35,693 bases of DNA from Enterobacteriaceae bacterium (lineage in GTDB: Bacteria; Pseudomonadota; Gammaproteobacteria; Enterobacterales; Enterobacteriaceae): the NCBI GenBank assembly GCA_031253755.1, contig JAIRVT010000107.1:1-35693 (forward strand). Reading direction: 5' to 3'. Shown here piece after piece: positions 2,644 through 34,387 of this stretch (position 1 is its first letter; each line of letters begins with the position of its first letter). The translations under genes were made by a program, and so were the position numbers. Below the pieces are notes generated by a model that saw only the letters and a program-made list of their open reading frames with translations, was not told the DNA's origin and did not search any database.

Positions 2644-4080
2644 TTATCTTTGCAGGTTTGTACTTACATGCGGCGTTCTGGTATTGCCTTCTTTCAGATT
2701 GCGGATAAGCAGGGCAAATTTCAGCTCGATTTCCTCAGGAACAGGAAAATAAACGATATGTCCATCACCCGGCGCGGTTTCAATTGCCTGACCTTTTTTG
2801 TTTGCCATTGATTCCAGCGTGAAACTGATGTTACCCGATGGCGTCATCAGTTCCAGGCTATCACCCACGAGAAATTTGTTTTTCACAGCGACTTCTGCCA
2901 GACCATTAACCCGGTTTCCCGTAAATTCGCCGACAAACTGCTGTGTTTCTGACACAGAGTGACCATATTCATAAGTCTGGTAAGCGTCATGAGTATGGCG
3001 GCGCAAAAAGCCTTCGGTGTAACCGCGATGCGCTAAGCCTGCCAGCGTACTCATTAAAGTCGGGTCAAACGGTTTGCCTGCAACGGCATCATCGATGGCG
3101 CGGCGATATACCTGAGCGGTACGGGCACAATAATAGAAAGATTTCGTCCGGCCTTCTATTTTTAACGAATGAACGCCCATACGGGTCAGCCGTTCCACAT
3201 GTTCGATCGCCCGCAGATCTTTGGAATTCATGATATAAGTGCCGTGCTCATCTTCAAAGGCGCTCATATATTCGCCGGGACGTTTGGTTTCTTCAATCAT
3301 GAAGACTTTATCTGTCGGCGCACCTTGTCCCAGCGTCGGCTCGACATTTTTAACCGGAATCGGCTCATAAGTATGCACGATATTTCCGGTATCATCTTCC
3401 TTACCTTCCTGCACCTTGTATTCCCAGCGGCAGGCATTGGTACAGGTTCCCTGATTAGGGTCACGTTTGTTGATATAACCGGATAACAGGCATCGCCCGG
3501 AATAAGCCATGCAGAGTGCGCCATGAACGAAAATCTCCAGCTCCATATCAGGCACCTGCTGACGGATTTCGGCAATCTCGTCCAATGAAAGCTCACGGGA
3601 GAGAATGACGCGGGTCAGCCCCATTTGTTTCCAGAATTTCACTGTTGCCCAGTTCACCGCATTTGCCTGTACGGAAAGGTGAATATCGATGTCTGGAAAA
3701 GCTTCACGAACCATCATGATTAAACCGGGATCGGACATGATCAGCGCATCCGGTTTCATTTCAACGACAGGCTGCAAATCACGAATAAACGTTTTCAGCT
3801 TTGCATTATGTGGCGCAATATTGACGACAACGTAAAAACGTTTGCCCAATTCATGGGCTTCTTTAATGCCTTGGGCCAGTGTTTCGTGATCGAATTCATT
3901 ATTTCGCACGCGCAGGCTGTAACGCGGCTGACCGGCATAAATCGCATCTGCGCCATAGGCGAACGCGTAGCGCATGTTTTTCAGGGAGCCAGCGGGAGAC
4001 AGCAGTTCAGGTGTAAACAGTTCGGGAGTAGACAGTTTGGGAATAGATAGTTCTGGAATAGATCGTTCTGGTGTAAACAT
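2644..4080 (-). CDS. trhP: tRNA 5-hydroxyuridine synthesis protein, U32 peptidase family
   Basis: TrhP (formerly YegQ) is needed for prephenate-dependent hydroxylation of U34 in tRNA. The 478-aa product aligns from LLSPAG (res 27-32) onward with E. coli YegQ (453 aa). It keeps the cysteine-rich GALCMAYSGRCLLSG and the CTNACRWEY segment (putative iron-sulfur ligands) and the U32 C-terminal domain. Most of the extra length is an N-terminal array of 5-residue units resembling SIPEL/STPEL (res 2-26), encoded by a 15-bp tandem repeat. The ATG at 4080 has only a weak ribosome-binding site (GAGAAC). An internal start is unlikely, because MFTPE resembles the normal MFKPE start. It is downstream of yegP and upstream of cyaR, as in E. 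coli. Confidence 0.95.
   Translation of the reverse strand: MFTPERSIPELSIPKLSTPELFTPELLSPAGSLKNMRYAFAYGADAIYAGQPRYSLRVRNNEFDHETLAQGIKEAHELGKRFYVVVNIAPHNAKLKTFIRDLQPVVEMKPDALIMSDPGLIMMVREAFPDIDIHLSVQANAVNWATVKFWKQMGLTRVILSRELSLDEIAEIRQQVPDMELEIFVHGALCMAYSGRCLLSGYINKRDPNQGTCTNACRWEYKVQEGKEDDTGNIVHTYEPIPVKNVEPTLGQGAPTDKVFMIEETKRPGEYMSAFEDEHGTYIMNSKDLRAIEHVERLTRMGVHSLKIEGRTKSFYYCARTAQVYRRAIDDAVAGKPFDPTLMSTLAGLAHRGYTEGFLRRHTHDAYQTYEYGHSVSETQQFVGEFTGNRVNGLAEVAVKNKFLVGDSLELMTPSGNISFTLESMANKKGQAIETAPGDGHIVYFPVPEEIELKFALLIRNLKEGNTRTPHVSTNLQR
4003..4077. repeat. 15-bp tandem array in the trhP 5' end (5 units)
   Basis: Five contiguous 15-bp units, plus strand: CAGTTCAGGTGTAAA, CAGTTCGGGAGTAGA, CAGTTTGGGAATAGA, TAGTTCTGGAATAGA, TCGTTCTGGTGTAAA. 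They encode FTPER, SIPEL, SIPKL, STPEL and FTPEL at residues 2-26 of TrhP, where E. coli has a single FKPEL. The unit shares a GATCGTTC-like core with the mdtC and phnW arrays. Confidence 0.95.
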
Positions 4081-4115
4081 ATTAATCGCGTTCTCAGTCT
4101 GAGTTCAGGTCAGAT

Positions 4116-4198
4116 CTTACCCGTCTGGATATCCTTTCTAAGAATAAGGGTAAGATTAAAAGAAGGGAATTTTAGCGCTTATACGGCGGATGGCACAA
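4116..4198 (-). promoter_or_regulatory. trhP promoter and leader hairpin
   Basis: On the minus strand TTGTGC (4198-4193), an 18-bp spacer and TAAAAT (4174-4169) form a plausible sigma-70 promoter. The leader would contain a long-loop hairpin with CTTACCC/GGGTAAG arms (4148-4154 and 4116-4122). The function of the hairpin is unknown. Confidence 0.5.
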
Positions 4199-4261
4199 AT
4201 TTATTGGTCGCTGACAAAGAAACAACGGGCAAGAAGGTGGAGGGAAACAGGTGAGAAGAAA

Positions 4262-4281
4262 CGCGCCGCCAAAGCGGCGCG
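4262..4281 (-). terminator. Terminator after yegP
   Basis: An 8-bp GC stem (CGCGCCGC and GCGGCGCG) with a 4-nt loop lies just downstream of the yegP stop and is followed on the minus strand by TTTCTTCT. It separates the yegP transcript from trhP. Confidence 0.8.
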
Positions 4282-4286
4282 ATTAA

Positions 4287-4631
4287 TTAATTATCTTTGG
4301 TTAAATCCCGGACCTTTTCAGTGCTCCCGACTTTCATGACAGACTGCATACCTTGCTTCACTGCATTTTCATTGCCATAAGATTCACTGATACCAATAAT
4401 CTGGTGATTCCGGGCCTTCAGGACAAAGTAAGTTTTACCGGACTTGTTTTTCCTCACTTCATGGCGGGATTTGTCCGGGGAATTGACTTGTACTGAGTGA
4501 ATACCTTTATTCGCGGCCGCTTTCGTGGTGTACATCTCACTGCTGAGAATGACATCACCGTTGGCCGCGATCAGATGAAAATAAAATTGCCCGTTCTTTG
4601 CTTTCTTAAGATCAAAATGCCCAGTAGCCAT
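4287..4631 (-). CDS. yegP: YegP-like DUF1508 tandem-domain protein
   Basis: Small soluble protein of 114 aa from the ATG at 4631, built of two DUF1508 repeats. The first is roughly residues 4-50 (FDLKKAKNGQFYFHLIAANG). The second is roughly residues 55-100 (EVRKNKSGKTYFVLKARNHQ). Each is followed by the SE-YTTKAAANKGIHSV / SYGNENAVKQGMQSV type helix. E. coli YegP (110 aa) has the same layout and an unknown biochemical role. This start follows AGGAG at 8-nt spacing, whereas an upstream in-frame start would add ten unrelated residues. In E. coli, yegP follows baeR. Here it directly follows mdtC, so mdtD-baeS-baeR are missing. Confidence 0.92.
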   Translation of the reverse strand: MATGHFDLKKAKNGQFYFHLIAANGDVILSSEMYTTKAAANKGIHSVQVNSPDKSRHEVRKNKSGKTYFVLKARNHQIIGISESYGNENAVKQGMQSVMKVGSTEKVRDLTKDN

Positions 4632-4698
4632 AAGAAATTCTCCTGATTGGGTAATTATCAACCTAAGTTTAGCTTAAATTTTGTACAGGTGAATTTTT

Positions 4699-7600
4699 TT
4701 ACTCACGTGTTTTGACTCTTTCCATTCGCTGAAATTTTGCCCTACGGCGCTGGCGCCATTTCTCACGCAGCCGATCAAACGACAGATAGACCGCAGGTGT
4801 GGTATAGAGTGTAAGCAACTGACTCATGACCAGACCGCCAACAATCGTGATCCCCAGCGGATGACGCAGCTCAGCACCGGTGCCATTATTGAGCACCAGA
4901 GGCAGGGCACCGAACAATGCGGCAAGTGTTGTCATCATAATGGGCCGAAATCTTAACAAACTGGCCTGAAATATCGCTTCCCGCGCACTGAGCCGGCCAT
5001 TTCTCTGCGCTTCAAGCGCGAAATCCACCATAATGATGGCATTTTTCTTCACAATACCAATCAGAAGCATAATGCCAATCATGGCAACCAGACTAAATGG
5101 CGTCTTGAATAATTCCAGTGCCAGCAAGGCACCAACACCCGCAGAAGGCAGTGTGGAAAGAATAGTCAGCGGATGCATATAACTTTCATAAAGCACACCC
5201 AGCACCAGATAAACCGTCACAATGGCGGCAAGCAGCACCAATAATTGGGAATCCTGACTTTTCTGGAAGTTTTCAATATCACCGGTGAAAGAGCCGCGAA
5301 CAGAAGACGGCATACCGAGTTCCGTTATTGTGCGCTCGATAACCCGGACAGCATCAGACATCGTATAACCTTCCGCAATATCAAAATTGATGGTCGAAAC
5401 CGCAGAAAGCCCCCGATGCTCGACATCCAGCGGCGCATTTGCCGGGCGCCAGCTGGCAAAGTAAGAGAGGGGAATACGTTTCCCTTCCTTATTAATGACA
5501 AAAAGTTTATCCAGTGCGCTGGGATCTTGGTTATATTCAGGCGCGACTTCCATCACCACTTTATATTGATTCAGCGGTTCATAAATGGTTGAAATTTGTT
5601 GTTGCCCGAAAGCATTACCGAGCAGGCTGTTCGCTTGGGCTACGCTGATGCCCAGACGTGCCATAAGATCGCGATCATAAGTGATGGTCAGTTCGGAACC
5701 TTTATCCTCATCATTGGCATTAATGCCCGTCAGCTGAGGTAATTGCGTCAGCGCTTTTCGGATGATGGGCGTCCACTTGCGCAGTTCATGAGCGTCATCC
5801 GATAACAAATCAAATTGATAACTGGATTTTTCATTCCCACCGCCACCGCCCCCGCCACCGAATCCGAGGTCTTGGATCGGATTCAGATACAATTCTGCTC
5901 CCGGCTCATTAGCGAGTTTTTTCCTGAGTTTCTCCATCACTTTCTGGATGTGGATTTTGCGCTCACTGATTGGCTTTAACGAGATAAACATGATGCCAAC
6001 ACTGATATTATCCCCATCGATAAAACCGGTCACACTTTCAACGGTGGGATCGTCATTAATGACCTGTATGACATGGGTCAGTTTTTTGTGCATCGCCTGA
6101 AATGAAATACTTTGATCAGCAACGATAAAACCCAGCATTTGCCCCGTATCCTGTCTGGGTAAAAACGTTTTCGGAATGCTGATATAAAGCCAGATATTCA
6201 GCACGATAACGCCAAATAACACCAACAACACCCAGCGGGTATGGTTAAGAACCCATGCCAGTGAACGCCCGTAATATTGCTGAATTCTCAGAAAAACTTT
6301 ACCGAAGCCGCGAATTTTCTTCATCGAATGTTCGTGAAAAGATCGCTCGTGAAAAGATCGCTCGTGAGAAGATCGCCCGCGGGAGGATTTCAGCAGATGC
6401 GCGCACATCATCGGGGTTAATGTCAGGGAAACCAGCAGTGAAATACCTATTGCGGTGGTGAGTGTCACGGCAAAATCAAGCAATAGCCTGCCCAGTAACT
6501 CGTCTATCAATACCAGTGGAATAAAAACGGCAACCAGTGAAACGCTCATGGCAAGCACGGTGAACCCGACTTCCCTGACGCCTTTAAGTGCGGCCTGTGC
6601 CGGTTTTAACCCTGACTCCAGATGACGGGAGATATTTTCCAGCACCACAATGGCATCATCGACAACAAATCCGGTGGCAATAGTCAGTGCCATTAAAGAG
6701 AAATTGTTCAGGCTGAAGCCACACAAGTACATGGCAGTAAATGTACCAATCAGCGACACCGGAACCGCAATCGCCGGGATCAGTGTGGCGCGTCCTGAAC
6801 GCAGGAAAAGAAAAACCACCAGAATAACCAGAGCGACAGCCACAACCAATGCCTGTTCTACTTCATGCAGCGAAGTCCGAATCGTCGGGGAGCGATCCAT
6901 CATCACATTCAGTTTAATATTGGCAGGCATCGAGGCTTGCAGGGCAGGCAATTCCGTCCGAATCCGATTAACCGTGGCAATAATATTCGCATTGGATTCC
7001 CGCCGGATGATTAACAAAACTGCGGGTTTAGTGCCGGACATCGCCACGGCTCGGGTATTTTCGACGGAATCTTTCACCGTTGCGACATCTTTTAAACGAA
7101 CCGGCGAGCCATCACGGTAATTGATGATAATATCGCCATAACCGCTCGCTTCCCTGATTTCATCATTCGTTTGTACCTGCCAGTTTTGCTTATCTGCATC
7201 AATATGCCCGGTCGGGCGTCTGGCATTGGCACTGTTAATCACATCGCTGACATCATCCAGTGAAATCCCTTGGTTAAATAGCACGTTCGGGTTCAATTCA
7301 ACGCGGACTGCGGGTAATGAACTCCCTGCTACCGTGACCCGACTGACACCTTCCAGTTGTGAAATTTTCTGACTCAGCTGTGTAGAGGCAATATCGTACA
7401 ACTGCCCTGCACTATAACTATCTGATGTCAGAGTTAAAATCATGATTGGGGAAGAGGAAAGATTCGCCTTATGGTAAGAAGGACGGCTCGGCATTCCTGA
7501 GGGTAACAGGCTTTCTGCGGCATTAATCGCCGCCTGAACATCCCGTGCAGCGCCATTGATATCCCGGTCGAGGTTAAATTTCAGAAAGATAAAAGAAGAG

Positions 7601-7860
7601 CCCAATGAGCTGGTGGAGCTCATCTCTTTCACCCCGGCAATTCTGCCCAGTGATCGCTCTAACGGAGTCGTGACGGAAGAGGCCATCGTTTCCGGTGATG
7701 CACCGGGCAAAGAAGCGGTCACCGTAATCACCGGAAAATCAACCTGCGGCAGCGGTGATACCGGCAGTAAGGTAAAACTGAGCGCCCCTAACAGGGTAAT
7801 CGCCACGCTTAACAGTGTCGATGCGACCGGTCGCTGAATGAATAGGGCGAAAAATTTCAC
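4699..7860 (-). CDS. mdtC: RND multidrug efflux permease subunit MdtC
   Basis: MdtC is an inner-membrane proton/drug antiporter that assembles with MdtB into a heterotrimer, coupled by MdtA to TolC. It exports bile salts, novobiocin and deoxycholate in E. coli. The 1053-aa product has the RND layout: TM1 at the N-terminus, two large periplasmic loops, and [16 protein letters not shown] with the Asp pair of the proton relay in TM4. It is about 28 aa longer than E. coli MdtC. Two inserts are obvious: a histidine/arginine-rich repeat [17 protein letters not shown] (around res 492-512, cytoplasmic side between the two halves) from a 15-bp array, and an eight-glycine run in the second periplasmic loop. 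The start overlaps the mdtB stop by 4 bp, so translation is coupled. Confidence 0.96.
6326..6385. repeat. 15-bp tandem array inside mdtC (4 units)
   Basis: Plus-strand units GAATGTTCGTGAAAA, GATCGCTCGTGAAAA, GATCGCTCGTGAGAA and GATCGCCCGCGGGAG are contiguous. They encode serine/histidine/glutamate/arginine pentapeptides (SFHER type) in a loop that is shorter in E. coli MdtC. Units 2-4 each carry a GATC at 6341, 6356 and 6371, exactly 15 bp apart. Confidence 0.95.
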
Positions 7861-10800
7861 AGCGGCTCCTGCTGTTCAGTAGAAGAAGACGTTAATTTTG
7901 CCTGATTATTTTGACGTCGGTTTTTATATGGGTATTTGTTTTTATAATGCCGTCCTAATCGGTCAAAGAGCAGATAAATCACCGGCGTGGTAAATAACGT
8001 CAGGATTTGGCTCATAATTAACCCACCCACCATACTCACACCGAGTGGATGCCGTAATTCAGCACCAATACCGCTACTGATCATTAAAGGCAGAGCGCCC
8101 AGTAATGCTGCCATTGTTGTCATCAATATCGGCCGGAAACGCAGGAGGCAGGCCTGAAAAATCGCATCGTAGGGAGACATGCCTTGTTCACGCTCAGCGG
8201 CCAAGGCGAAATCGATCATCATGATGGCGTTTTTCTTCACAATGCCGATCAACAGAATAATCCCGATAATGGCAATAATATCCAGCTCATAACCGCCTAT
8301 CATCAGCGCCAGTAATGCACCGACACCGGCGGTAGGCAGTGTGGACAGAATCGTCACCGGATGGATAAAACTTTCATACAGAATGCCAAGCACAATATAC
8401 ATCGCCACAACCGCAGCCAATATCAGCAACAAGGTATTACTGAGGGTATCCTGAAATGCCAGCGTTGCTCCCTGAAATTGGGTGTTGATATCTTTGGGCA
8501 GATTAATCGCACGTTCGGTTTCCTTCACGGCGTTAACGGCGGATTCCAGCGACGTATCCGGGGCAACATTGAATGAAAACGTTGCCGCAGGGAATTGCTG
8601 TAAATGGTTGATGGATAAATAGCCCAATCGCTGCTCAATCGAGGCAATAGCCGTCAGTGGAACTATCTTGCCATCTGAACTCAAAAGACGGACGTCATTG
8701 AATGCCTCAAGGTTGGGAGAATGTTGGGTATCCTGTTCAAATACCACTCTGTATTGATTGGCTTGTGTATAAATGGTTGAAATAAGCCGTTGACCGAACG
8801 CACTGTACAGCGCATTGTCAATTGCTGCCATAGAGATACCCAGACGGCTCGCCATATCACGGTTGACGTTGATATAAGCCACTAACCCGTGGTTCTGCCA
8901 GTCGTGACTGATGTCGGCCAACTCAGGTCGTTTTTCCAATGCCTGCTGTAACTTGGGTATCCAGACGCTCAGCTCATCAAGGGAAGTGGCCTGCAACGTA
9001 AATTGATATTGCGTGCGGGAAACCTGCGTATCGATGGTCAGGTCCTGAGCCGGTTGCAGGTATAAAGTCACATCGGGAACTTTAGCCACCCGCGCTTGCA
9101 GGCGGGGAATAATTTTCTCAATGCTGTCTGTTGCTCCACTGCCTGTTTCTTCGCTGCCTGTTTTTCCAAGGCTCGCTTTACGCTGATCAAAAGGTTTGAG
9201 CGTAATTTGCAGGCGTCCGTTATTCAGGGTGGCATTATTGCCATCAACACCGATAAACGTCGTCACATTTTCCACCGCCGGGTCTTGCAGCAACAGTGCG
9301 GTGACCTGACGCTGTTTATCTGCCATCGCATTGAAAGAGATAGACTGCGGCGCTTCCAGTGTTCCCTGAATCAGGCCGTTATCCTGTAAAGGGAAAAAGC
9401 CTTTGGGAATAAAAACATAGAGCAGGATAGTCAGCGCCAGCGTACTGAGTGTCACACCAAGCGTCATCCAAGGATGATTCAGGATACGTTTAAGCCAGAC
9501 GCCATAGATGGCAATCATCCACTCAAAGAAACGTTCGCAAGCGTGTTCAAACCGATTGTGTTTAATGTCAGCTTCAGCTTTCAGCATTCTTGCACACATC
9601 ATTGGCGTTAGTGTCAGCGATACCACGGCTGAAATTAAAATCGCCACTGCCAGTGTCACGGCAAACTCCCGGAATAAGCGACCGACAATATCCCCCATAA
9701 AGAGCAGCGGGATCAAAACGGCGATTAACGAAAACGTCAGTGAGATAATGGTAAAACCGATTTCCCCCGCACCTTTTAAGGCCGCCGCCAGCGGTTTTTC
9801 TCCCCGCTCAATGTAACGGGAAATATTTTCGATAACGACAATGGCATCATCCACCACAAATCCGGTTGCAATGGTTAATGCCATCAAGGTCAGATTATTG
9901 ACGGAGAAACCACAAAAATACATCACGGCAAATGTGCCAATCAGGGAAAGCGGAACTGCAATGCCGGGGATCAGGGTCGCCATGCCGTTGCGTAAAAAAA
10001 GATAAATCACCATGACAACCAGGGCGATTGCCAGCAATAACTCAAATTGGACATCTTTCACGGAGGCGCGGATCGTGACAGTACGATCGGTCAGAACTTC
10101 AACTTTGACCGATTTGGGCAGGCTACGGATCAATTCCGGCAACATGGCCCGGATGTTATCCGTCGCTTCAATCACGTTCGCTCCCGGCTGCCGCTGAACA
10201 TTGATCACAATGGCGGGCTTTTCATTTGCCCATGCACCCAGTTTGTTATTCTCCGCACCATATTCAATCGTGGCGACATCCCGCAGGCGAACCGGTGCAT
10301 CGTTTTTATAGGCCACAATCAAATTACGGTACTCATCAACGGATTTCATCTGATCGTTGGCCGATAACGTGATCGAGCGGGTAGGGCCATCAAAGCTGCC
10401 TATGGCTGAATTGACGTTCGCATTCATGATGGCATTACGAACTGTGTTACTGTCCAGCCCCTGAGCGGCGAGTGCCTGCGCATTCAATTTCACGCGTACC
10501 GCCGGACGTTGCCCGCCTGCCAGCGTGACCAGCCCGACACCACTGACCTGCGAAATACGCTGGGCAACGCGGGTTTCCACCATATCCTGAACGTCTGTCA
10601 TCGGTATGGCATCAGAAGTGACTGCCAGAGTTAAGATCGGCGGGTCAGCCGGATTGACCTTGCTGTAAATGGGCGGATAGGGCAAATCGCGGGGTAACAG
10701 ATTGATACTTGAATTGATTGCGGCCTGTACATCCTGTTCTGCCACATCCAATGGCAGGGAAAGCTGAAATACCAGCGTGATCACCGAAGCGCCGCCGGAG

Positions 10801-13095: not shown

Positions 13096-13233
13096 ATTGA
13101 ATATTTTAGTAATATGCTTCCATAATTGATATTATTAAGGTGAAGTTGGTATTTGATAAATTTATTTTAATAACATTTTATTTTTAAATAAATGTTAAAA
13201 TGTTTTATTTGTAAACTACAAAAGGAAGTAAAA

Positions 13234-19205: not shown

Positions 19206-19264
19206 AGTGATCGGCTGTTGAGTGATCGATGATTCGTTGCTCGCTCGTTGAGTCGCTGCTGGTT
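19206..19264. repeat. Degenerate 15-bp tandem array in the purM-purN spacer
   Basis: Plus-strand units AGTGATCGGCTGTTG, AGTGATCGATGATTC, GTTGCTCGCTCGTTG and AGTCGCTGCTGGTTT are contiguous, with a weaker preceding unit at 19191-19205. Two GATC sites lie 15 bp apart (19209, 19224). The array fills most of the gap between the purM stop and the purN start, a junction that is short in E. coli. Confidence 0.7.
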
Positions 19265-21906: not shown

Positions 21907-24900
21907 ATGAAAATATACAAAAAATCAGCATTATCGCTGGCCATCAAAACGGCGTTATTGTTCTCAGGAATATCGTTTTCAGGAATAAGTGTGAATGCCA
22001 TTGCGGCTGGTTCAAAATGCGACACGCCGAAAGATGATACAACCATTTCTGATAATAGAACAGCAACCTGTAATTTGGCAAACGGTGAAAGTCTTATTAT
22101 CGAGAATGGAGGCTCGATTGATGTCAGCGGTGATACTACTTCAGAGACGGTTATTGCTATTAATATTGATCCATCTATTGATGTTGGTGGGATTACGGTT
22201 AAGCAGGGTGGAAAATTAGTTGCTGGCGGTGGCGGCATTTACGACGATGGAGGAAAGGAGAGGTCCGGGATATTTAATGCAGGCAATATTACTAAAGGTA
22301 TTGATAATTCAGGCACAATTTCTGGTAAGGCTGGAATTACTAGTGTTGGAGGAAATGTCAGTATTAAGATCATTAATAATCAGTCCATGATACAAGGAGG
22401 GACTTCCGGATTAAATATTTCCAGTAATGTTACAGATGGTATTTATAATTCAGGTACAATTTATGGTAAATATAGTGTTTTTGGTAATCAAACGGGGGTT
22501 ATCAAGACCATTAAGAATCAAGCCAACGCTCTAATACAAGGAAAGACATCCGATAGGGGAGTTGGGATACATATTTCCAATCATATTTCTGATAGTATCG
22601 ATAATTCAGGTAAAATTATTGGTGACCGAGGAATTAATATTGAAAAAGCAGGGGTTGTCAACCGTATTATTAATCAGAAATCCGGTGTGATAACAGGAAT
22701 GGAATCCGGGATACAGGTTTTCGGTGAAATTACGAATGATATTGATAATTCAGGTACAATTACTGCTAATCAGGCAATCCGTACTGAAGAGAGCAGTAAA
22801 ATTAAGAGTATTATTAATAATGACGACGGTATAATTAAAGGTAAAAATTTCTCGATAGTTAATCACAATGTTATTGGCGATATTAAAAATTCAGGCACCA
22901 TAACTGGCCCTATGCTTAATCAGGGTGATATTACCGATAATATTCAAAATTCCAATGAAATAAATGGTAGTATAATTAATGTTGGCTTTGTTAATAGTAT
23001 TCAGAATTTAAAAGATTTTAATGGTGATATATCTAACAGACATATGCAAGATACAGAGGAATATGGTAGCACGGAATATATTGGCATCATAAATAAGATT
23101 CAAAATTCAGGCACCATTGCCGGTAATATAGAAAATACCAGTATTATTAAGGAAGGTATCCACAATTCAGGCACCATTAAGGGCAAAATAAATAATACTC
23201 ATAAACTGGATGCCGTTAGTAATAAGGAACGCATCGGTACTATCAATGGAGGTATTTACAATTCAGGCACCATTAGTGGAGGTATTTACAATTCAGGTAC
23301 TATTAATGGAGATGTGGCGCTTGGCAACGCAAATCTTTATCTGTCTGGCTCAAACACTACCCTGAATGGCGCTATTAGTGGTACGAAAGAGACCATTGTT
23401 ACCATCAGTGATGGCATGTCCATGCTGACAGGCCAGAGCACTCAATTTGACGGAATAACTAATGTCGCGGGGGGTATTTTAGCCCTTAAAGGAACACTCG
23501 GTTCACCAAATTCAACGCTCACCGTGAAAAGCGGTGGCTCGGTGAGTGGTAAAGATCTAACCGGTGGCACCATTGGTGGCGCAACAACAATTGAAAATGG
23601 CGGTCATCTTACCAACCAGTATGGCGGATTGACATTTAACCGTAACCTGTTCCTTAATCCAGAAGCCAATGTCGATATTTTTCTGGGGACAGAAGGAGAA
23701 TCCGCCCCGGCATCGTTTGATGTGAATGGCGATCTGATTCTGGCGGGCAGCCTGAATATCAAAAATGCGGAACAACAGACCGTGGCGGGTGAATACGATA
23801 TATTCAACTATGGCGGTAAATTAACCTATTACAACCCAATGACACTCACGGGCGGCATCCCCGGTGCATTCGTTCTCCATACGGATATCGACAAAAAGAT
23901 CACGCTTATCCACGCAAGCGATATCACCCTGAACTATTGGAATGGGGGAGATGGTATTTGGCAGGTGGGTAACATGCATGACTGGACATCGAAAAATGGG
24001 GATATCCATTATCACTGGGATGACACGGATAAGTTTGTCATTTTCAATAAAAACGGCGGTACTGTTCAGGTCGATAACAGCGGTGGGAATGTCAAAGTTC
24101 ATGGGATGCAGTTCATCACCAATGGCTATACGATTGCCGGGCAACCGTTGACTCTAGTCAATGATAAGAACGGCAGCGCTAAAATCCGTGTTGGCGCAGA
24201 TATCAATAAATCCGTAAATACGCTTGCTACCATTGCAACGGACCTGACAGGCGATGCCGTGCTGGAGAAAATGGACGGCGGTACGTTAGTGATAACCAGC
24301 AATAACAATAGTTACAAAGGTGGTACGAAAATTACGGGAGGCACTCTCCAGCTGGGAAACAATACCACCACAGGGAATCTTCCCGGCACTGTATCCATCG
24401 GCACTCAAGGTGCACTCGCTTTTAATCACTCAGATAACTTCACATTTGGCAACCCAATCACCGGTCAGGGTAATCTGGTGAAAAAAGGCGCCAATGCGCT
24501 GACACTCACGGGTGCGAGCAGTTATAGCGGTGTGACCGATATTCAACAGGGAACGCTTTTGCAGGGCAAAACCGGCGCGTTCAGTGTAAAGTCGAACTTT
24601 ATCACCAGACCGGGCAGTATGCTCAATCTGGGCGGAGATAATACAACACTTGCCGGGCTGGATAACGGTGGCACCGTGTTATTCGGCGGCGATAAAAATG
24701 CGGTCGGGCGGACACTGACCGTCAACGGTGATTACACTGGTAATAATGGTGTTGTGGAATTATCGACAGTGCTGGGAGGGGATAATTCAGCCACGGATAA
24801 ACTCGTGATAAACGGCAACGCTACCGGGAAGACACTGCTTGACATCAGCAATGCCGGTGGAAAAGGTGCGCTCACGCATAAAGGCATCGAAGTGGTGCAT

Positions 24901-26196: not shown

Positions 26197-26244
26197 TGAG
26201 TATTTGTCTGAGCCGAGTGAACTTAATGCCTGCATGATAGTGCC

Positions 26245-26831: not shown

Positions 26832-27184
26832 TTATAACACCTAGTTGAGTAACAGGAATAGGTTGCCCTCCAGATATCCGGAAAATATAGGAAATAACGT
26901 ATAACATCCAAAGTCAGTGATATGATAATGAAACGTTTCTTATAATAAGCGAGCAGCCATGTTCAATGAACAGGATTTGAGGAAATCTTGTTTTAACTGA
27001 CAGGAAACATTGGGGAATAAACAAAATCTAGTGGCTATACCCAGAGTCTCGACTGGACATGACAGCCAAGTGAATTTTTCATGATATTTATGGAAAGGTG
27101 TTGGAACTGCGGGAAATATGTACTTTGTAAGCTATCTGTTCGATAATTTGCGTATCTTTGAATTAAGCTAGAGAAAACAAAAAA
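26832..27184. other. Intergenic region with a promoter-like site, no gene
   Basis: About 350 bp between the MFS stub and the ArsR-like gene. TGAAACGTTTCT at 26929-26940, a near-perfect Cra/LacI-type palindrome, directly abuts TATAAT (26941-26946). Downstream is only a 13-codon frame (MFNEQDLRKSCFN, 26959-27000), which could be the stub of a lost regulator gene. No other feature is supported. Confidence 0.45.
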
Positions 27185-27529
27185 ATGAAACATCATCCAG
27201 AACGTCATCAAATACGGCTTGAACATGTCCTTACCGCATTAGGTAATCCCATGCGAATGACGGTTGTTCGTGTGCTGGCAGATGGCAATGAACATACCTG
27301 TGGCTCTATCCTGAAAGGCGTATCAAAATCCACTCTGACTCATCACTGGCGAGTCCTTCGTGATAGTGGTGTTATCTGGCAGAAACCTTCAGGCAGGGAA
27401 AACTTATTATCTCTTCGCAGGGCAGACTTAAACACCCGTTTTCCGGGGCTGTTAGACTCATTTCTCACGGCCACAAAAGAAGATGAACTGACTGGTTCGA
27501 CCATTAAACAATATAGTCCAGATGCCTGA
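27185..27529 (+). CDS. ArsR-like winged-helix transcriptional regulator
   Basis: A 114-aa DNA-binding protein with an ArsR-type winged helix: LTALGNPMRMTVVRVLADGN (helices 1-2), then SILKGVSKSTLTHHWRVLRD as helix-turn-helix, GVIWQKPSGRENLLSLRRAD as wing. The metal-binding ELCVC motif of ArsR/SmtB is absent, and only one cysteine remains. The signal it senses is unknown. It is convergent with the DHA2 exporter at 27571, a pairing that suggests, but does not prove, that it regulates that exporter. The ribosome-binding site is weak (AGAG, 11 nt). Confidence 0.85.
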   Translation: MKHHPERHQIRLEHVLTALGNPMRMTVVRVLADGNEHTCGSILKGVSKSTLTHHWRVLRDSGVIWQKPSGRENLLSLRRADLNTRFPGLLDSFLTATKEDELTGSTIKQYSPDA

Positions 27530-27537
27530 TAGCATTG

Positions 27538-27565
27538 TTTCTCCGGCCTGCCATGACCGGAGAAA
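27538..27565. terminator. Terminator between convergent arsR-like and MFS genes
   Basis: TTTCTCCGG and CCGGAGAAA form a 9-bp stem with a 10-nt loop in the 41-bp gap between the two stop codons. The flanking T and A runs are short, so it may serve both directions. Confidence 0.65.
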
Positions 27566-27570
27566 AGTAT

Positions 27571-28995
27571 TTATTTAGAAGCGGGAATAATCAGTGACTT
27601 TCTTCCCGGTAATATAAGCGAAATAAGTAACGCAAACACCATACCTATTGCAGCATAGAGAAAGGCATACCATGTACTTGTTGCCAGTAAAGCGGTTTCG
27701 TTTTCCGGAATATTTCGCTGTGCTACAGTTGTCGCCAGAGCAATCAGCACGGCCAGACCAATCGCATTTCCAATATTAAGCGTTGTTGACGCCATACCTG
27801 AGGCAATACCTTGTTCGCTATGGTCAATACCCGTTGCAGCAGCGATCCACATGGCTGTCCAGACAATCCCCTGACCCAGACCAGAAATAATTAAACCGGC
27901 CAGAATCGATTGATAAGACGCGGAGATTGATGCACCGGGCAGCATTAATAATGTTCCGGCAATGCCAATAATACAGCCTGCAATGATGGCATTTCTCGTT
28001 CCTATCGCATTCGTAAGACGTGCCCCTGCCTGAGTTCCGATAAAAATGGCTAAGGATGGAATAATAAACGCGAGGCCAGTTTCAAGTGCGTTGTAATGCA
28101 TCACATTCTGAAACAGGACAGTTTCGAAGTAAGGCAGTGCGCCAAACGTGCCCATATAAATAAAAGTCACGGTAACACTAGCAACCAGATTTTTATTACG
28201 GAAAAGATGTAACGGCATCAATGGATCACGGGATTTTGATTCGATTATGGTGAACATGATGAAACTGACCAGAGCGAGGAGCAGTGCATACTTAATGATC
28301 GGTTCTCCCCAACCATATTCAGGTCCCTGAACAAGCGAAAAAACCAGAAGAGTAGACGCTGCTGTGACACTCAATGCGCTAGGAAAATCGAAACTGCGTT
28401 TTTCATGCCTGACAGGATCGGCAGGAATAACGATGAAAGCCGCAATGATTACGATACCCGCTAACAGGACATTCACATAAAATACCGATGACCAACCCAG
28501 ATAATTTGTCAGAAGACCACCAGCCAGTGAGCCAATGGTTAAACCACTCGCTCCGGCTCCTCCCCAAGCGGCTAACGCTCTGTTACGCTCAGGGCCTTCA
28601 CTGAACAGTCGGTTGATAAGGGAAAGAGTGGCAGGAAAAAGGAAAGCGCCTCCGATTCCCTGAACTGCGCGAGCAGCAATAATCACCTCAGGACGCCATG
28701 CCAGTCCACCAATCAGAGATGAAATAGCATATAACCATAAGGCACCGATGAACATTCGGCGCTGACCGAGCAAGTCAGCGGCACGACCACCGAAGAGCAG
28801 GAAGCCGCCACAAAAAACGGTATAAGCACTGACAACCCACTGAAGTGTCTGATCAGAAAAAGCAAGATCTTTTCCTATTTCTGGAAGAGCAACAAATACG
28901 ATATTGATATCTAAAGAAATGATCAATTGAGCAAATGCCAGCAAGGCTAAACTTAACCCCAATTGATAGTGATGGTCACCTTGATACTGAGACAT
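27571..28995 (-). CDS. DHA2-family (14-TM) MFS multidrug exporter
   Basis: An inner-membrane drug/proton antiporter of the EmrB/QacA class. The 474-aa product from ATG 28995 has LDINIVFVALPEIGKDLAFS with the DHA2 motif D1-type pattern in TM1, WVVSAYTVFCGGFLLFGGRA in TM2, motif A GGRAADLLGQRRMF, motif C GASGLTIGSLAGGLLTNYLG in TM5, and about 14 hydrophobic spans. The start at 28995 is set by AAGGGG six bases upstream. The longer in-frame start at 29037 lies inside a palindromic promoter site. The substrate cannot be told. The convergent ArsR-like gene is a candidate regulator. Confidence 0.9.
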   Translation of the reverse strand: MSQYQGDHHYQLGLSLALLAFAQLIISLDINIVFVALPEIGKDLAFSDQTLQWVVSAYTVFCGGFLLFGGRAADLLGQRRMFIGALWLYAISSLIGGLAWRPEVIIAARAVQGIGGAFLFPATLSLINRLFSEGPERNRALAAWGGAGASGLTIGSLAGGLLTNYLGWSSVFYVNVLLAGIVIIAAFIVIPADPVRHEKRSFDFPSALSVTAASTLLVFSLVQGPEYGWGEPIIKYALLLALVSFIMFTIIESKSRDPLMPLHLFRNKNLVASVTVTFIYMGTFGALPYFETVLFQNVMHYNALETGLAFIIPSLAIFIGTQAGARLTNAIGTRNAIIAGCIIGIAGTLLMLPGASISASYQSILAGLIISGLGQGIVWTAMWIAAATGIDHSEQGIASGMASTTLNIGNAIGLAVLIALATTVAQRNIPENETALLATSTWYAFLYAAIGMVFALLISLILPGRKSLIIPASK

Positions 28996-29345
28996 AAATC
29001 CCCTTAATTGTTTTATTGTATGAGTATATACGTACAATTAAAATATAGGCATTGTAACTAACTAAATGCAAGCGTTATTTGAGGTGATCTAAGATGTTTT
29101 GCAGGGAACTTCAGGGTAAAAGCAGCTAGAAAGTATAGAAGCTAAACTTTCAACAGATGAAATACTTAATATTTATTGATGATTTAATCAAAGAGAAAGG
29201 CTGAATAAAATCTTATTGATTGATTCAGAAATCGGTCTGGTTTGCTCCATTCCGATTTCTGAACTTATTCTGGCATCCTGTTACTCTGCTACTCAAGCCG
29301 GAGGCTGTCTTCGTTATCGCAGAGGAGAGGATTCAGGAAATGATA
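28996..29345. other. Intergenic region with a 12-bp hairpin, no gene
   Basis: 350 bp between the exporter start and the cold-shock gene stop. Apart from the operator-like site it holds a perfect 12-bp inverted repeat, TTCAGAAATCGG at 29224-29235 and CCGATTTCTGAA at 29252-29263, with a 16-nt loop and no T tract. It lies about 80 bp after the cold-shock gene stop and may be its terminator or part of an unannotated RNA. No ORF is convincing. Confidence 0.5.
29015..29038 (-). promoter_or_regulatory. Palindromic operator-like site before the MFS gene
   Basis: ATTGTA and TACAAT arms flank a central GTATATAC, itself a perfect palindrome, 20-43 bp upstream of the exporter start codon. A TATACT that could be the -10 overlaps it on the minus strand. 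The arrangement suggests a repressor operator. The cognate regulator is not known. Confidence 0.5.
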
Positions 29346-29561
29346 TTACGATAAAGCCACAACATTTGCTGCTGCCGGGCCTTTAGCACCATTCTCGATG
29401 GTGAACTCGACGCTCTGGCCTTCGTTCAGAGTACGGTAGTTGTCACTCTGAATCGCAGAGAAGTGTACGAATACATCTTTGCTTCCATCGGTAGGAGAGA
29501 TAAAACCAAAACCTTTATCTGCGTTAAACCATTTTACTGAACCAGTCATTTTGTTAGACAT
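29346..29561 (-). CDS. CspA-family cold-shock protein / RNA chaperone
   Basis: A 71-aa single cold-shock domain that binds single-stranded RNA and DNA and melts RNA structure. It contains both ribonucleoprotein motifs, KGFGFI (res 16-21) and VFVHF (res 30-34), and starts [20 protein letters not shown] like CspA/CspB of Yersinia and E. coli. The start at 29561 follows AAAGGA at 8 nt. A longer frame from 29627 would run through the leader. Which csp paralogue it is cannot be settled, but the long cold-box leader marks it as a cold-inducible type rather than CspE/CspC. Confidence 0.95.
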
Positions 29562-29728
29562 GTGATATTTCCTTTGATTGAGCCTTTTTAGGCGAATATG
29601 GCCTGTATTACAGAAACTACTTAGCACTTAATGGAGGAACTCAAAAGAAAGGGATATCTGGGATAACGCCTGTGGATGAGAACTGCTTTAATAAACTGCT
29701 TTGTATGAGGTCTGTCTTTCAAACCGAC
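29562..29728 (-). promoter_or_regulatory. cspA-type 5' leader with cold box
   Basis: The untranslated leader is about 167 nt (E. coli cspA 159 nt). It opens with CGGTTTGAAAGACAGACC (29726-29709), close to the E. coli cold box CGGTTTGACGTACAGACC, and AAAGCAG follows as in E. coli. Such leaders refold at low temperature to expose the ribosome-binding site. Confidence 0.85.
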
Positions 29729-29734
29729 GTGCGC

Positions 29735-29763
29735 ATTAACGCATAATCAAAAATCTTAAGCAA
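29735..29763 (-). promoter_or_regulatory. Promoter of the cold-shock gene
   Basis: TTGCTT (29763-29758), a 17-bp spacer and GTTAAT (29740-29735) place +1 near 29728, immediately before the cold box. Upstream DNA is A/T-rich and could act as an UP element. Confidence 0.7.
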
Positions 29764-29889
29764 GCGATATTTTCATTTTTTTGCAATTATTTTTGTCTGC
29801 CGATACTTCTGGGTGGGTCAATTTCATTCCCAGATAACAGGGGTCAGCGATGTTATAAAAAGTAATACCTATTAATTACAATTCATTCG

Positions 29890-29926
29890 TTAGCTCCTGC
29901 CTATCAAATCAATAGCAGCAAGTGAT
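29890..29926 (+). promoter_or_regulatory. Putative OxyR site upstream of ahpC
   Basis: The OxyR pattern is four ATAG/CTAT elements at fixed spacing. Here the inner pair is perfect: CTAT at 29901, seven bases, ATAG at 29912. The outer left element is TTAG (29890) and the outer right is a poor TGAT (29923). It lies 58-94 bp upstream of ahpC, as expected for OxyR activation. This is a motif call only. Confidence 0.5.
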
Positions 29927-29983
29927 TGGAGAAACCGACGGCAAACCCGTAACTTAGCCAGCAACCAAACAGGAGAAACGAAA

Positions 29984-30547
29984 ATGTCTTTAATTAATAC
30001 CCAAATCAAATCATTCAAAAACCAAGCATTCAAAGACGGCCAATTTATCGAAGTCACCGAAAAAGATGTCGAAGGCAAATGGAGTGTATTTTTCTTCTAT
30101 CCAGCTGATTTTACCTTTGTCTGTCCAACCGAGTTAGGCGACGTTGCTGACCATTATGCTGAATTCCAAAAATTGGGTGTGGAAATTTACTCAGTGTCAA
30201 CAGATACCCATTTCACACACAAAGCATGGCATGCAAGTTCTGACACAATTAACAAAATCAAGTATGCCATGATCGGCGACCCCACCGGCACATTGACGCG
30301 TAACTTTGAAATCATGCGTGAAAACGAAGGCTTGGCTAACCGTGGCACTTTTGTTGTTGACCCACAAGGCATCATTCAGGCTATCGAAATTACGGCTGAA
30401 GGTATCGGCCGTGATGCGTCAGATTTGTTACGTAAAGTGAAAGCCGCTCAGTATGTTGCGAGCCATCCGGGTGAGGTTTGCCCGGCTAAATGGAAAGAAG
30501 GTGAAGCAACATTGTCTCCATCTTTGGATTTGGTCGGCAAAATCTAA
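29984..30547 (+). CDS. ahpC: Alkyl hydroperoxide reductase peroxiredoxin subunit
   Basis: AhpC reduces hydrogen peroxide, organic peroxides and peroxynitrite, and is recycled by AhpF. The 187-aa typical 2-Cys peroxiredoxin has the peroxidatic Cys47 in [10 protein letters not shown] and the resolving Cys166 in GEVCPAKW, the same positions and length as E. coli. The ATG at 29984 follows ACAGGAGAAACGAAA, a strong ribosome-binding site. It leads ahpC-ahpF with a 100-bp gap, and an OxyR-like site precedes it. Confidence 0.98.
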
Positions 30548-30647
30548 TAATACCCGCCGCCTTTTAAGTTGTGCTTTATTTCAAAAATATCCAGTCGATT
30601 GATGTTATCGGGTGCTATGCGCCCGATTTTATAACCAGGGAAATCAT

Positions 30648-32228
30648 ATGCTCGATAATAATATGCAGGCTCAATTGAAAGCCTACTTAGAAAAACTCAC
30701 TAAACCGGTAGAATTAATCGCAAATTTAGACAGCAGTACAAAATCTGTCGAAATCAAACAACTTATTACTCAGATTGCGGCGCTGTCAGACAAAATTACA
30801 GTGCGCGAAGTGAGGGATGCAGCGTTAAGAACGCCATCATTTTTGATTACTGATCCGGGCGCTGCTAACTCAGGTGTGAATAATCGTGGGGTGCGTTTTG
30901 CGGGCTCGCCGTTAGGCCATGAATTTACATCACTGGTATTGGCGTTATTACAAATGGGCGGCCATCCGTCTAAAGAAGCGCAAGAATTATTGGAGCAAGT
31001 CAAATCCCTTGAAGGGGAATTCCATTTTGAAACCTATTACTCATTATCCTGTCACAACTGCCCTGATGTTGTTCAGGCGCTGAACTTAATGGCGATATTG
31101 AATCCCAACGTGCGTCACACCGCCATTGATGGGGCAATATTCCAGAATGAAATTGAAGAACGCCATATTATGGGCGTGCCCGCTGTGTTCTTAAACGGCA
31201 AAGCGTTCGGTCAAGGGCGAATGACGCTCAGTGAAATCGTTAATAAAATCGATAACAACGCAGAAACACGGGCGGCAAAGGCATTGACAGAGCGTGATCC
31301 GTTTGAAGTCTTGATTATCGGTAGCGGGCCAGCGGGCGCTTCAGCGGCAATCTATACTGCACGAAAAGGGATCCGCACGGGAGTGATTGGTGAGCGTTTT
31401 GGTGGTCAGGTCATGGATACGGTGGATATCGAAAACTATATTTCTGTGATTAAAACCGAAGGCGCGATCTTTGCCGGTGCCCTGAAAAACCATGTGGATG
31501 ACTACAGCGTGGATGTGATTGACGGGCAATCCGTCACGAAATTGATCCCGGCAACAGCAGCAGGTGGTTTGCATCACATCGAAACGGCTTCAGGCGGTGT
31601 ATTGAAATCACGCAGCATTATCATTGCGACAGGGGCTCGCTGGCGCAATATGGGCGTGCCGGGAGAGCAAGAATATCGCACGAAAGGCGTTACATTTTGC
31701 CCGCACTGTGATGGCCCGTTGTTTAAAGGAAAACGTGTCGCGGTTATCGGCGGCGGTAATTCTGGTATCGAAGCCGCGATTGATTTGGCGGGTATCGTCG
31801 AGCATGTCACGGTTTTAGAGTTTGCGCCTGAGCTGAAAGCGGATGCGGTTTTGCAGCAAAAAGCCCGTAGCCTGAAAAATATCGATATTATTTTGAATGC
31901 ACAAACCTTAGAAGTGAAAGGTGACGGCGCCAAAATGACGAGCCTTGACTATAAAGATCGCACAGATGAAAGCGTGCATTCATTAGATGTGGCGGGCGCT
32001 TTCGTTCAGATTGGCTTGTTACCTAACACACAATGGTTAGGTGACACCGTGGCTCGCAACCGTATGGGTGAGATTGAAGTCAATATGCGTGGTGAAACGA
32101 ATGTGAAAGGGGTATTTGCTGCGGGTGACTGTACGACCGTTCCCTACAAGCAGATCATTATTTCAGCGGGAGAAGGCGCAAAAGCCGCGCTCAGCGCATT
32201 CGACTATTTGATTCGTACAAGTGCTTGA
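30648..32228 (+). CDS. ahpF: Alkyl hydroperoxide reductase flavoprotein subunit
   Basis: AhpF uses NADH and FAD to reduce AhpC disulfide. The 526-aa product (E. coli 521) has the N-terminal double thioredoxin-fold domain with CHNC at res 135-138, the FAD-binding GSGPAG (225-230), the thioredoxin-reductase-like CPHC (351-354), the NADH-binding GGGNSG (368-373) and the C-terminal FAD motif [16 protein letters not shown]. The ATG at 30648 follows CAGGGAAATC. The in-frame start at 30612 would add 12 residues foreign to the family. Confidence 0.98.
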
Positions 32229-32259
32229 TTCGCTGAATAGCCGTTAAATTTCTATCACC

Positions 32260-32296
32260 ATTTCTACCCAGCAGCGTAATGCCGCCGGGCAGAAAT
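32260..32296. terminator. Hairpin between convergent ahpF and phnX
   Basis: ATTTCT-a-CCC pairs with GGG-c-AGAAAT around a 17-nt GC-rich loop, in the 108-bp gap between two convergent stop codons. The T tract is weak. It is a probable bidirectional terminator. Confidence 0.5.
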
Positions 32297-32336
32297 ACTA
32301 TTTAGAACGGCAATTCAGAACGGCTATGCAGAAATG

Positions 32337-33146
32337 TTACGGGCGTTCGCCCTTTGCCAGACGCGAATTAATTACCGCTATGACTTTTGGCAAATCTGCC
32401 AGCGAATCGATCACATAGTGCGCGCCTGCGGCATACAGCTTACTGGCTGCGCTGTCGCGGCGAGTCGCAATGTCTTGCGCGGACATTGCCTGATATTCTT
32501 CCCACGTCGCCCCAAATTCGTTGCCGGAAACTGCCAGCCCGACGCTCCACATGCCAGCGTTGATCCCCTCTTCAATGCCCGGAGCGGAATCATCGACTTT
32601 CACGCAGTGAGAAACGGCATCAATGCCGAGTGCAATAACGTTTTGCAGCGCCATCCACGGGCCGGGACGGCCACCGGCTGCGAGATCGTCAGTGGCGACC
32701 CAGTGATCCGGCGAGTAACCGTGGCGGGCGGCCGCCGGAACCAGTTTTTCCATGACCGCACGCGGGTAACCGGAACAGGAGCCGATTTTAATGCCGTTAG
32801 CGCGAAATGCTGCAATCGTGTCGATAACTCCTGCAATGGGGGCTGAAAAATCGACAACTTTTGCAATTTGCAGTGGCATAAAGGCGGCATAGATGGCGTC
32901 GATATCCGCAGCGGTCATCGAACGGCCAAACTTAGCCTGCCAGCGGGCGTCAACGGCGGATAACTTGCCCAGCGCTTCAATATGTTGCCATTTGCCGAGG
33001 CCCATCGGCACACGTGCCTCTGCGAGCGTGATCTCGACATCAAAAGCCTGCCGGAACGCTTCGACAAAAATCTGGGTGGGCGCAAAAGAGCCAAAATCGA
33101 CGGTAGTACCTGCCCAGTCGAGAATGACGGCGTGAATGCGGTTCAT
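32337..33146 (-). CDS. phnX: Phosphonoacetaldehyde hydrolase (phosphonatase)
   Basis: PhnX cleaves the C-P bond of phosphonoacetaldehyde to acetaldehyde and phosphate, the second step of 2-aminoethylphosphonate (AEP) use. The 269-aa HAD-superfamily enzyme has the nucleophile aspartate in [13 protein letters not shown] (Asp10), the Schiff-base lysine in MGLGKWQHI (Lys52), the cap domain, [17 protein letters not shown], and the Mg-binding [13 protein letters not shown]. Its start overlaps the phnW stop by 4 bp, so the two steps are translationally coupled. The local GC content looks higher than in the purine and hcp regions. Confidence 0.97.
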
Positions 33147-34387
33147 TGTGGTTCCTTATTTGGTGCGAACTTTTCAATATGATCTTGCCAATAGATGGCA
33201 TCATTGATAGCGGCAAGCAAGGCAACAATATCGTCCTCGTATACTTCGCCAATGTTACCAATCCGAAAGCAATCGCTCTGTGACACCTTGCCGGGATAAA
33301 TCACAAAGCCTTGCGCTTTCAGACGAGTATAAAAATCCTTAAAGCGATATTGTGGATCTGTCGGCGAGTAAAACGCGGTAATGATTGGCGAGTGGAGTGC
33401 ATCATCCAGTAGGGTGCGGAAACCCAGTTCACGCATACCGGCGACCAGTTGACGTTGGTTGTTGTGATAGCGCTGGTGGCGCGCCACCACACCGCCTTCT
33501 GCGCTCAGCTCTTTCAGCGCTTGGGCGAAAGCCAGTACGGTATGCGTTGGCGAGGTAAAACGCCACTTACCGTGATGGTCCTCCATGCAACGCCATTGGG
33601 CGTAGAGATCTAACGACAGCGAGCGGGAGCGTCCTTCACAGGCGGCAAGTTTATCCGTACGGGCGATCACAAAAGCAAAGCCGGGTACGCCCTGAATACA
33701 TTTATTGGCAGAGCTAATCAAAAAATCGATACCCAATTCCGCGACATCCAACGGAATTCCCCCAAAACTGCTCATAGCATCGACGATGTAGGTTTTGCCG
33801 AATTGACGTGCCAGTTCACCCACTTCACGAATAGGGTTAAGCATACCGGTGGTGGTTTCGCAATGGACCATCGCGATATGGGTGATTGTGCTGTCAGCGT
33901 TGAGGATCGTCTCGATGGCCGCGACCTCAGGCCGGGCAATTTCACCGCAGTCGTATACGTGATGCGCGATACCCATCAGCCCGGCCATTTCTACCATCCG
34001 TGCGCCGTAAGCTCCATTGCTGACAATCAGCACTTTATTTTGCCGGCTGATATTCTGTTGGCCGATAACACTGCCGAGTACCGCTTCAACGGCATAACTG
34101 CCGCTGCCCTGCAAGAGCACGGAAGTGTAGCCAGCCGCTGAAGTGGCAAGCGAAATCAACTGTTGGCGAATCTGCTCTACCACACCAAGATTGTAGTCAT
34201 CATCCCAGGTACAGCTGTCGAAAAGCATCGCTTCTTTCACAGTGCGTGACGTGGTTAACGGGCCGGGAGTCAGGAGCAGGTAGTTATGAAGACGATCGTT
34301 GTGAGGAGGATCGGTGTGAGGAGGATCGTTGCGAAGAAAATTGCTGCGAGGATGATCGCTACAAGGCAGGTCGTTACGAAAAGTCAT
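33143..34387 (-). CDS. phnW: 2-aminoethylphosphonate--pyruvate transaminase
   Basis: PhnW is a PLP enzyme that moves the amino group of AEP to pyruvate, giving phosphonoacetaldehyde and alanine. From [18 protein letters not shown] onward it follows Salmonella PhnW, with the PLP lysine in SSANKCIQG (Lys229 here, Lys194 in Salmonella). The offset comes from two insertions: about 30 residues at the N-terminus ([20 protein letters not shown]-type pentamers) and five at 111-120 ([10 protein letters not shown]), both from 15-bp repeats. I choose ATG 34387, because AAAGGTG lies 6 nt upstream. The GTG at 34396 would overlap that ribosome-binding site. The 414-aa product may still be active since the extension precedes the fold, but this is inference. 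Confidence 0.95.
34037..34066. repeat. 15-bp duplication inside phnW
   Basis: On the minus strand ATCGGCCAACAGAAT and ATCAGCCGGCAAAAT are adjacent and match at 11 of 15 bases. They encode IGQQN and ISRQN, where Salmonella PhnW has a shorter GPQDK loop before [10 protein letters not shown]. Confidence 0.75.
34282..34386. repeat. 15-bp tandem array in the phnW 5' end (7 units)
   Basis: Plus-strand units include AGTTATGAAGACGAT, CGTTGTGAGGAGGAT, CGGTGTGAGGAGGAT, CGTTGCGAAGAAAAT, TGCTGCGAGGATGAT, CGCTACAAGGCAGGT and CGTTACGAAAAGTCA. They form the first 35 codons of phnW, where Salmonella PhnW has only MTSRNY. GATC sites fall at 34294, 34309, 34324 and 34354, spaced 15, 15 and 30 bp. Confidence 0.95.

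Follow-up and report, generated by a model that had tools for sequence, protein, structure and literature searches.

Short tandem arrays of 13–18 bp in genes and spacers of a Xenorhabdus genome: excess over relatives, reading-frame dependence of unit length and a shared oriented core

The DNA analysed here (hereafter the window) is contig JAIRVT010000107.1 of assembly GCA_031253755.1, positions 1–35,693, i.e. 35,693 nucleotides of a Xenorhabdus genome denoted G000. Its subject is a class of short head-to-tail repeats with units near 15 bp, found inside conserved genes and in the spacers between them. These arrays are real and extend beyond the window: in G000 they occur in excess over other Xenorhabdus genomes, are absent from the orthologues compared, differ in unit length depending on whether they lie within an open reading frame (ORF), and share a core with a preferred orientation. 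Some ordinary enzymes have thus gained extra five-residue repeats that their relatives lack. The explanation that we consider probable is a burst of slippage-type duplication of ~14–18 bp in the G000 lineage, linked to replication, biased by motif and strand, and filtered by reading frame.

The G000 assembly comprises 3.0 Mb in 107 contigs and is 83% complete; the window is its contig C70. The closest named matches of its PurN belong to Xenorhabdus stockiae (85%) and X. innexi (84%). The names trhP, mdtB, mdtC, purM, purN and phnW, as well as those of the polA neighbours, are presumed identities, taken from a preliminary description of the window and from our own recognition.

Excess of short arrays over related genomes

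Arrays were called by a single lag-score rule (score of at least 16), the same for G000 and its relatives. The G000 sample totals 931,442 bases including the window, and consists of contigs C1–C50 (at most the first 20 kb of each) and seven further stretches. The pool of relatives holds all sequence sampled from 29 other Xenorhabdus genomes (1,681,957 bases), is uneven per genome and contains some overlapping loci: eight genomes contribute 94–434 kb each, G016 138 kb, and the other 20 only 10–18 kb each. It also includes eight polA loci and 40 kb of G016 picked for known arrays.

According to this rule, the G000 sample contains 103 arrays, 71 of which have a period of 13–18 and 41 a period of 15. 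The pooled relatives have 18 arrays of period 13–18, which gives densities of 76 per Mb for G000 versus 11 per Mb for the relatives (p 3e-17, or 1e-16 when the window is left out). One 50-kb stretch of E. coli K-12 yields zero arrays, and 40 resampled windows contain zero arrays of period 13–18 even at score 14. The higher frequency implied by the preliminary description is thus supported, at roughly seven times that of the pooled relatives.

As for individual relatives, the eight best-sampled genomes other than G016 have 4 arrays of this class in 1.25 Mb (2 in G007, 1 each in G013 and G025, and zero in G005, G010, G014, G021, and G022). G016 carries 7 distinct arrays of period 13–18 in 138 kb; 120 kb were taken from it, of which 40 kb were picked for known arrays, and the remaining 80 kb hold 2. 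Among the 20 thinly sampled relatives, 5 have one or two arrays. The expansion, earlier called lineage-wide, therefore holds for G000, and a second species, G016, looks enriched, but the eight other better-sampled Xenorhabdus genomes are not. Outside the genus, 31 loci from Yersinia, Serratia, and more distant bacteria (198 kb, laxer score of 14) contain two arrays of period 15, both in Yersinia, one of period 18, and one of period 19, while eleven Photorhabdus loci (73 kb, score 14) contain one array of period 17.

Two local concentrations were seen in G000. Locus L152 (contig C21, 1–20000) has nine arrays in 20 kb, seven of them of period 13–18; five of the nine lie within one 4555-codon open frame, which may represent a local hot spot or a repeat-rich protein. 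The same two-copy array with a 16-bp unit occurs at L114:11271 and L114:12073, about 800 bp apart, perhaps within a larger duplication.

Unit length and reading frame

Long stop-free frames make up 87% of the G000 sample. Inside them, only periods 15 (35 arrays) and 18 (6 arrays) are found, whereas the arrays outside ORFs have periods 13 (1), 14 (6), 15 (6), 16 (6), 17 (7), and 18 (4). The density of period-15 arrays is similar in both compartments (43.2 per Mb inside ORFs and 49.6 outside). In contrast, periods 13, 14, 16, and 17 together reach 165 per Mb outside ORFs and 0 inside.

Since all periods from 13 to 18 occur outside ORFs and only 15 and 18 inside, the sharp value of 15 represents the frame-compatible survivor, and the 15-bp-specific process of the preliminary description is not supported. 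The simplest reading is that a duplication process of about 14–18 bp hits genes and spacers alike, and that frame-breaking lengths are later lost from genes. The other part of that proposal, a process acting on DNA rather than on protein, is supported, because the encoded peptides differ between loci and period-15 arrays are similarly dense inside and outside ORFs. A mutational length preference combined with a reading-frame filter can therefore mimic a five-residue protein element.

Arrays in the window and their absence from relatives

The window contains the following arrays of this class, given with position, strand, and context.

1026–1070, no strand: 14-bp array between ORFs 129–926 (+) and 1075–2124 (−), overlooked by the preliminary description
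4003–4077, minus strand: 15-bp array of 5 copies at the start of trhP, residues 2–26 (FTPER SIPEL SIPKL STPEL FTPEL)
6326–6385, minus strand: 15-bp array in a loop of MdtC, with a GATCGC core on the plus strand; +15 residues versus relatives
9123–9167, minus strand: 15-bp array of 3 copies in a loop of MdtB; the complete insertion is 48 bp (16 residues)
19206–19264, no strand: degenerate period-15 stretch in the purM–purN spacer, borderline
21956–21987, plus strand: 15-bp repeat of 2 copies in the signal peptide of an autotransporter (LLFSG ISFSG), reported by Tandem Repeats Finder
34037–34066, minus strand: two-copy 15-bp repeat inside phnW; the lengths of the alignments with several orthologues point to +5 residues within the aligned part
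34282–34386, minus strand: 15-bp array of 7 copies in the N-terminal extension of PhnW, about residues 4–38

In the window's genes the arrays are located at the N-terminus or in a loop. Because the array at 1026–1070 has 14-bp units, the period is not always 15, and other periods exist outside genes. Lag-15 matches were compared with the best stretch of equal length in each of 30 Markov-1 resampled windows. The arrays of trhP (48 of 60 matches, versus a null mean maximum of 29), mdtC (37 of 45 versus 23.6), mdtB (23 of 30 versus 17.8), and the phnW N-terminus (60 of 90 versus 38) are clearly real. Thus, of the seven places listed in the preliminary description, four lie far above chance. For the purM–purN stretch, 25 of 44 matches (null mean 22.9, largest 26) are a borderline value, and lag 19 is equally good (24 of 40). 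The remaining two, both two-copy repeats, are at chance level in a window of 35 kb: 11 of 15 matches versus 11.0 for the autotransporter at 21961–21990, and 11 of 15 versus 11.2 for the second phnW site at 34037–34066. The autotransporter pair at 21956–21987 has 88% matches in Tandem Repeats Finder. Two further repeats in the window have periods unlike the ~15-bp class, namely a 30-bp repeat in the autotransporter ORF (23245–23311) and a 27-bp AT-rich repeat (13150–13215).

The insertions had been described as missing from homologues, which is borne out by the orthologues compared. The array in the mdtC loop is absent in all 29 other Xenorhabdus genomes, the mdtB insertion in all 26 relatives that were parsed (of 29), and the trhP array in 27 of 28 Xenorhabdus genomes with a trhP match (one genome has no match). 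The exception, G013, has 3 degenerate copies, so that the copy number of the trhP unit is 5, 3, or 1 depending on the species. For PhnW, all 22 orthologues found in the order (E ≤ 1e-60) align locally only from about residue 32–38 onwards. Contrary to the preliminary description, the insertions are not always whole five-residue units: trhP and mdtC are extended by 20 and 15 residues, and mdtB by 48 bp, equal to 16 residues. PhnW itself (window 33143–34396) has no close counterpart in the other 29 Xenorhabdus genomes, where the best-scoring match reaches 30% identity, but a match of 82% is found in G030, a genome of the same family, which suggests either loss in the other Xenorhabdus or acquisition in G000.

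The trhP unit is present as a single copy in 27 relatives versus five copies in G000; the unit is thus local ancestral sequence. At L118:18437, one 15-bp counterpart in two relatives corresponds to four copies in G000, which makes a local single-copy origin plausible, although gapped alignment places this counterpart less cleanly. Outside the window, 14 sampled G000 arrays of period 13–18 have both flanks present in the sequence of a relative, and the alignments of these flanked arrays reveal no array at the corresponding place in the relative. Among the nine relatives' loci used, 2 carry a period 13–18 array elsewhere in their 20 kb, one of which (13 bp, G007) is near the compared site. Copying of the unit from local sequence can therefore be read at one or two loci only, several other compared loci being too diverged. 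At most compared loci, divergence of the ancestral sequence also masks any short direct repeats at the duplication ends, which would be expected of a flap-processing (polA) mutator.

Shared core and its orientation

Expectation-maximisation on the 71 consensus units results in the motif GATCGTTTTT with 6.23–6.24 bits, compared with 5.20 ± 0.10 bits for GC-matched genomic k-mers (largest of 40, 5.42). This test uses hard consensus sequences and 60 starts for both observed and null data (60 versus 10 in an earlier version). It replaces an initial soft-column test, in which the score of 6.40 clearly exceeded column shuffles (4.79 ± 0.15) but was barely above hard genomic 15-mers (6.02 ± 0.28, largest 6.62). 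On held-out halves of the contigs, z ranges from 2.9 to 5.2 in all 6 splits. The units thus share a degenerate GATCGTTTT-like core, and the GATCG(T)-like core proposed from the window is supported genome-wide in this degenerate form. Beyond the 10 positions of the model, the units lack a consensus, and over the G000 sample as a whole the core is not enriched. The paired pattern CGTTYT-N8-12-CGTTYT was also counted genome-wide in 30 genomes; G000 has 14.6 per Mb, the highest of all, with a median of 5.6 for the others.

Neighbouring copies differ more often in the GATCGT part of the core (11–21%) than at most other positions (4–14%). At trhP and mdtC, the CG of the core is missing from the relatives but present in part of the G000 copies, which gives reason to suspect that core-bearing copies may be duplicated again. 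Start phases of the arrays also cluster, but they are biased by mismatch-prone positions and no conclusion is drawn from them.

Regarding orientation, GATCGTTTT is antisense to the ORF in 30 of 41 arrays. Relative to GC skew, the core is oriented against the skew in 41 of 58 arrays with |skew| of at least 0.02 (p 0.002), a count that omits 12 weak-skew arrays and one of the two identical arrays. Split by location, arrays outside ORFs give 18 of 24 (p 0.02) and those within ORFs 23 of 34 (p 0.06); for all 71 arrays the number is 48. Random genic 15-mers that match the core, used as a compositional control, are unbiased (50% and 49%). The strand bias that the preliminary description asked about is therefore present. 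Positive GC skew generally marks the leading strand; if it does so here, the T-rich core lies on the newly made lagging strand, and its orientation hints at a connection with replication.

Proposed process and alternative explanations

In the reading that we consider probable, a slippage-type process would tandemly duplicate about 14–18 bp of whatever sequence is present locally, and the duplicated copies would then expand and diverge. The process would favour sites with a GATCGTTTT-like core, whether present from the start or acquired afterwards, usually on the strand in which C outnumbers G, and purifying selection would remove frame-breaking lengths from genes, leaving only 15 and some 18 inside ORFs. 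The duplications may arise during replication, through slippage or flap-type re-copying in lagging-strand synthesis; the core may itself promote duplication, and the rate of duplication, not only retention, may be raised in the G000 lineage. A bolder form of this proposal is put forward tentatively and is rather unlikely as a whole. It assumes a sequence-directed duplication, oriented by replication strand and active in some Xenorhabdus, in which a GATCGTTTT-like site, when its strand is copied discontinuously, would trigger re-copying of 14–18 bp, copies that regain the core would be copied again, and a genome-wide drive would lengthen proteins in five-residue steps.

The main rival holds that the arrays are ordinary background minisatellites, kept more readily by a tolerant lineage through drift or weak selection, with no special process involved; we regard it as doubtful, yet as a serious contender. 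Yersinia loci also carry 15- and 19-bp arrays, the units of the Y. pestis typing loci include lengths of 15, 17, 18, and 21 bp (PMC2257963), and one loop of the polA product has five-residue expansions in several Xenorhabdus. The degeneracy of many copies would also allow a gradual build-up. Against it stands a roughly seven-fold excess over the 29 pooled relatives, and a larger one over the well-sampled genomes, at the same threshold. A shared core and a strand bias are likewise unexpected from relaxed selection alone.

Two other explanations are less likely still. A dispersed mobile or iteron-like 15-bp element that inserts into genes would account for a GATCGTTTT-like core common to arrays at unrelated loci, but it is very unlikely, because the unit is local wherever it can be read, as at trhP. 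In addition, the shared model covers only 10 degenerate positions, lengths vary from 13 to 18, and the core shows no over-representation across the G000 sample. No identical full-length unit was found at unrelated loci among the 71 consensus units, the one identical pair lying 800 bp apart on the same contig. The earlier notion of a dispersed family of one element is accordingly not retained. Selection for protein-binding sites or peptide repeats would fit the orientation of the core and the presence of at least one array in a secreted protein (the autotransporter). This is nevertheless quite improbable, given that the peptides differ between loci, period-15 arrays are similarly dense in and out of ORFs, the GATCGT part is among the more variable parts of the copies, and the arrays are located in housekeeping genes.

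Several observations weigh against a replication-linked, motif-biased burst. The same excess could result from drift or relaxed selection at an unchanged mutation rate, and the frame filter may be exaggerated, since a frame-breaking array can shorten its ORF and then be counted as outside. The 12 weak-skew arrays trend in the opposite direction, 8 to 4, and GC skew, taken from short contigs, serves only as a proxy for the direction of replication. The form of the core is unstable: the training halves gave CG- or TG-TTTT in 4 of 6 cases and CGATTTT in 2 of 6, and because of this disagreement the core has to be called degenerate. In other genomes, 22 distinct arrays give no significant core (p 0.18), which may thus belong to the G000 lineage alone. 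As for the paired pattern, its reversed control is also highest in G000 (17.2 versus a median of 11.2), leaving a modest excess over this control (Fisher p 0.02). Twenty other patterns, some of which gave no excess, had been tried on the samples before this one was devised. At mdtC, where most flanks align with a gap of 0, the ancestral copy can be made out only loosely. Finally, the search for a causal gene found none, since G000 has matches to MutS, to a D12-class methylase, and to a separate 5'-3' exonuclease.

Relation to known tandem repeats

The arrays are bacterial minisatellites (variable-number tandem repeats, VNTR). Their copies lie head-to-tail, the unit falls within the range of roughly 10–100 bp, and it derives from local sequence at trhP (one copy in 27 of 28 relatives), plausibly at L118:18437, and loosely at mdtC. 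The ypms loci used for multiple-locus VNTR analysis of Y. pestis are described as short head-to-tail arrays (PMC2257963), and the G000 arrays resemble them in being short, head-to-tail, and of comparable unit length. Unlike VNTR loci of this type, as far as that source describes them, the G000 arrays are far denser than in relatives, share a core, have an orientation bias, and split in length by frame.

In the survey of Subirana and Messeguer (2019), prokaryotic satellites have units of 10–260 nt, among which multiples of three predominate and are linked to coding repeats, and only 18 of 119 bacterial species exceed 4 satellites per Mb with at least 4 copies (PMC6749651). G000 likewise has tandem repeats with multiples of three in coding sequence; its density, however, is about 24 per Mb (period at least 10, at least 3.8 copies) in our own, looser scan. 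The main text of that survey does not mention Xenorhabdus (PMC6749651), and among the matches listed, no title or abstract opening in the open-licence literature describes such arrays in this genus. Compared with known minisatellites, the density, the oriented core, and the clean length split by frame are unusual. New minisatellites arise rarely in bacteria, which makes their birth difficult to study. With its dense arrays, array-poor relatives, readable lengths, core, and strand bias, G000 would make the mechanism of birth testable.

Candidate genes

Mutants in flap processing (the polA 5' nuclease in E. coli, rad27 in yeast) produce short tandem duplications and are affected in lagging-strand processing. 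G000 resembles them in its short tandem duplications and in the proposed lagging-strand link. Unlike in these mutants, no such mutation could be shown in G000, whose incomplete assembly yielded no polA, and in G016, which also bears arrays, the open frame of polA is full-length (997 codons).

Among 30 Xenorhabdus genomes, the PF00476 (polA) match is missing only in G000. When the polA neighbourhood of G025 is compared with G000, matches break off ~2 kb before polA, where contig C102 ends; on the downstream side there is no good match, only about 300 bp at 68% on another contig. Since the matches stop at a contig end and the assembly is 83% complete, this is most likely an assembly gap, and the missing match counts as no evidence for polA loss as the cause. 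Loss of MutS, of a D12-class (Dam-type) methylase, or of an ExoIX-like nuclease was also rejected, all three having family matches in G000.

DNA polymerase I itself varies in the genus. Its stop-to-stop open frame ranges from 933 to 1017 codons across 29 genomes, and one loop has five-residue tandem expansions (e.g., GESEA/GKSEA units) in several Xenorhabdus, as seen at loci L196 (G016), L197 (G029), L198 (G001), and L199 (G028).

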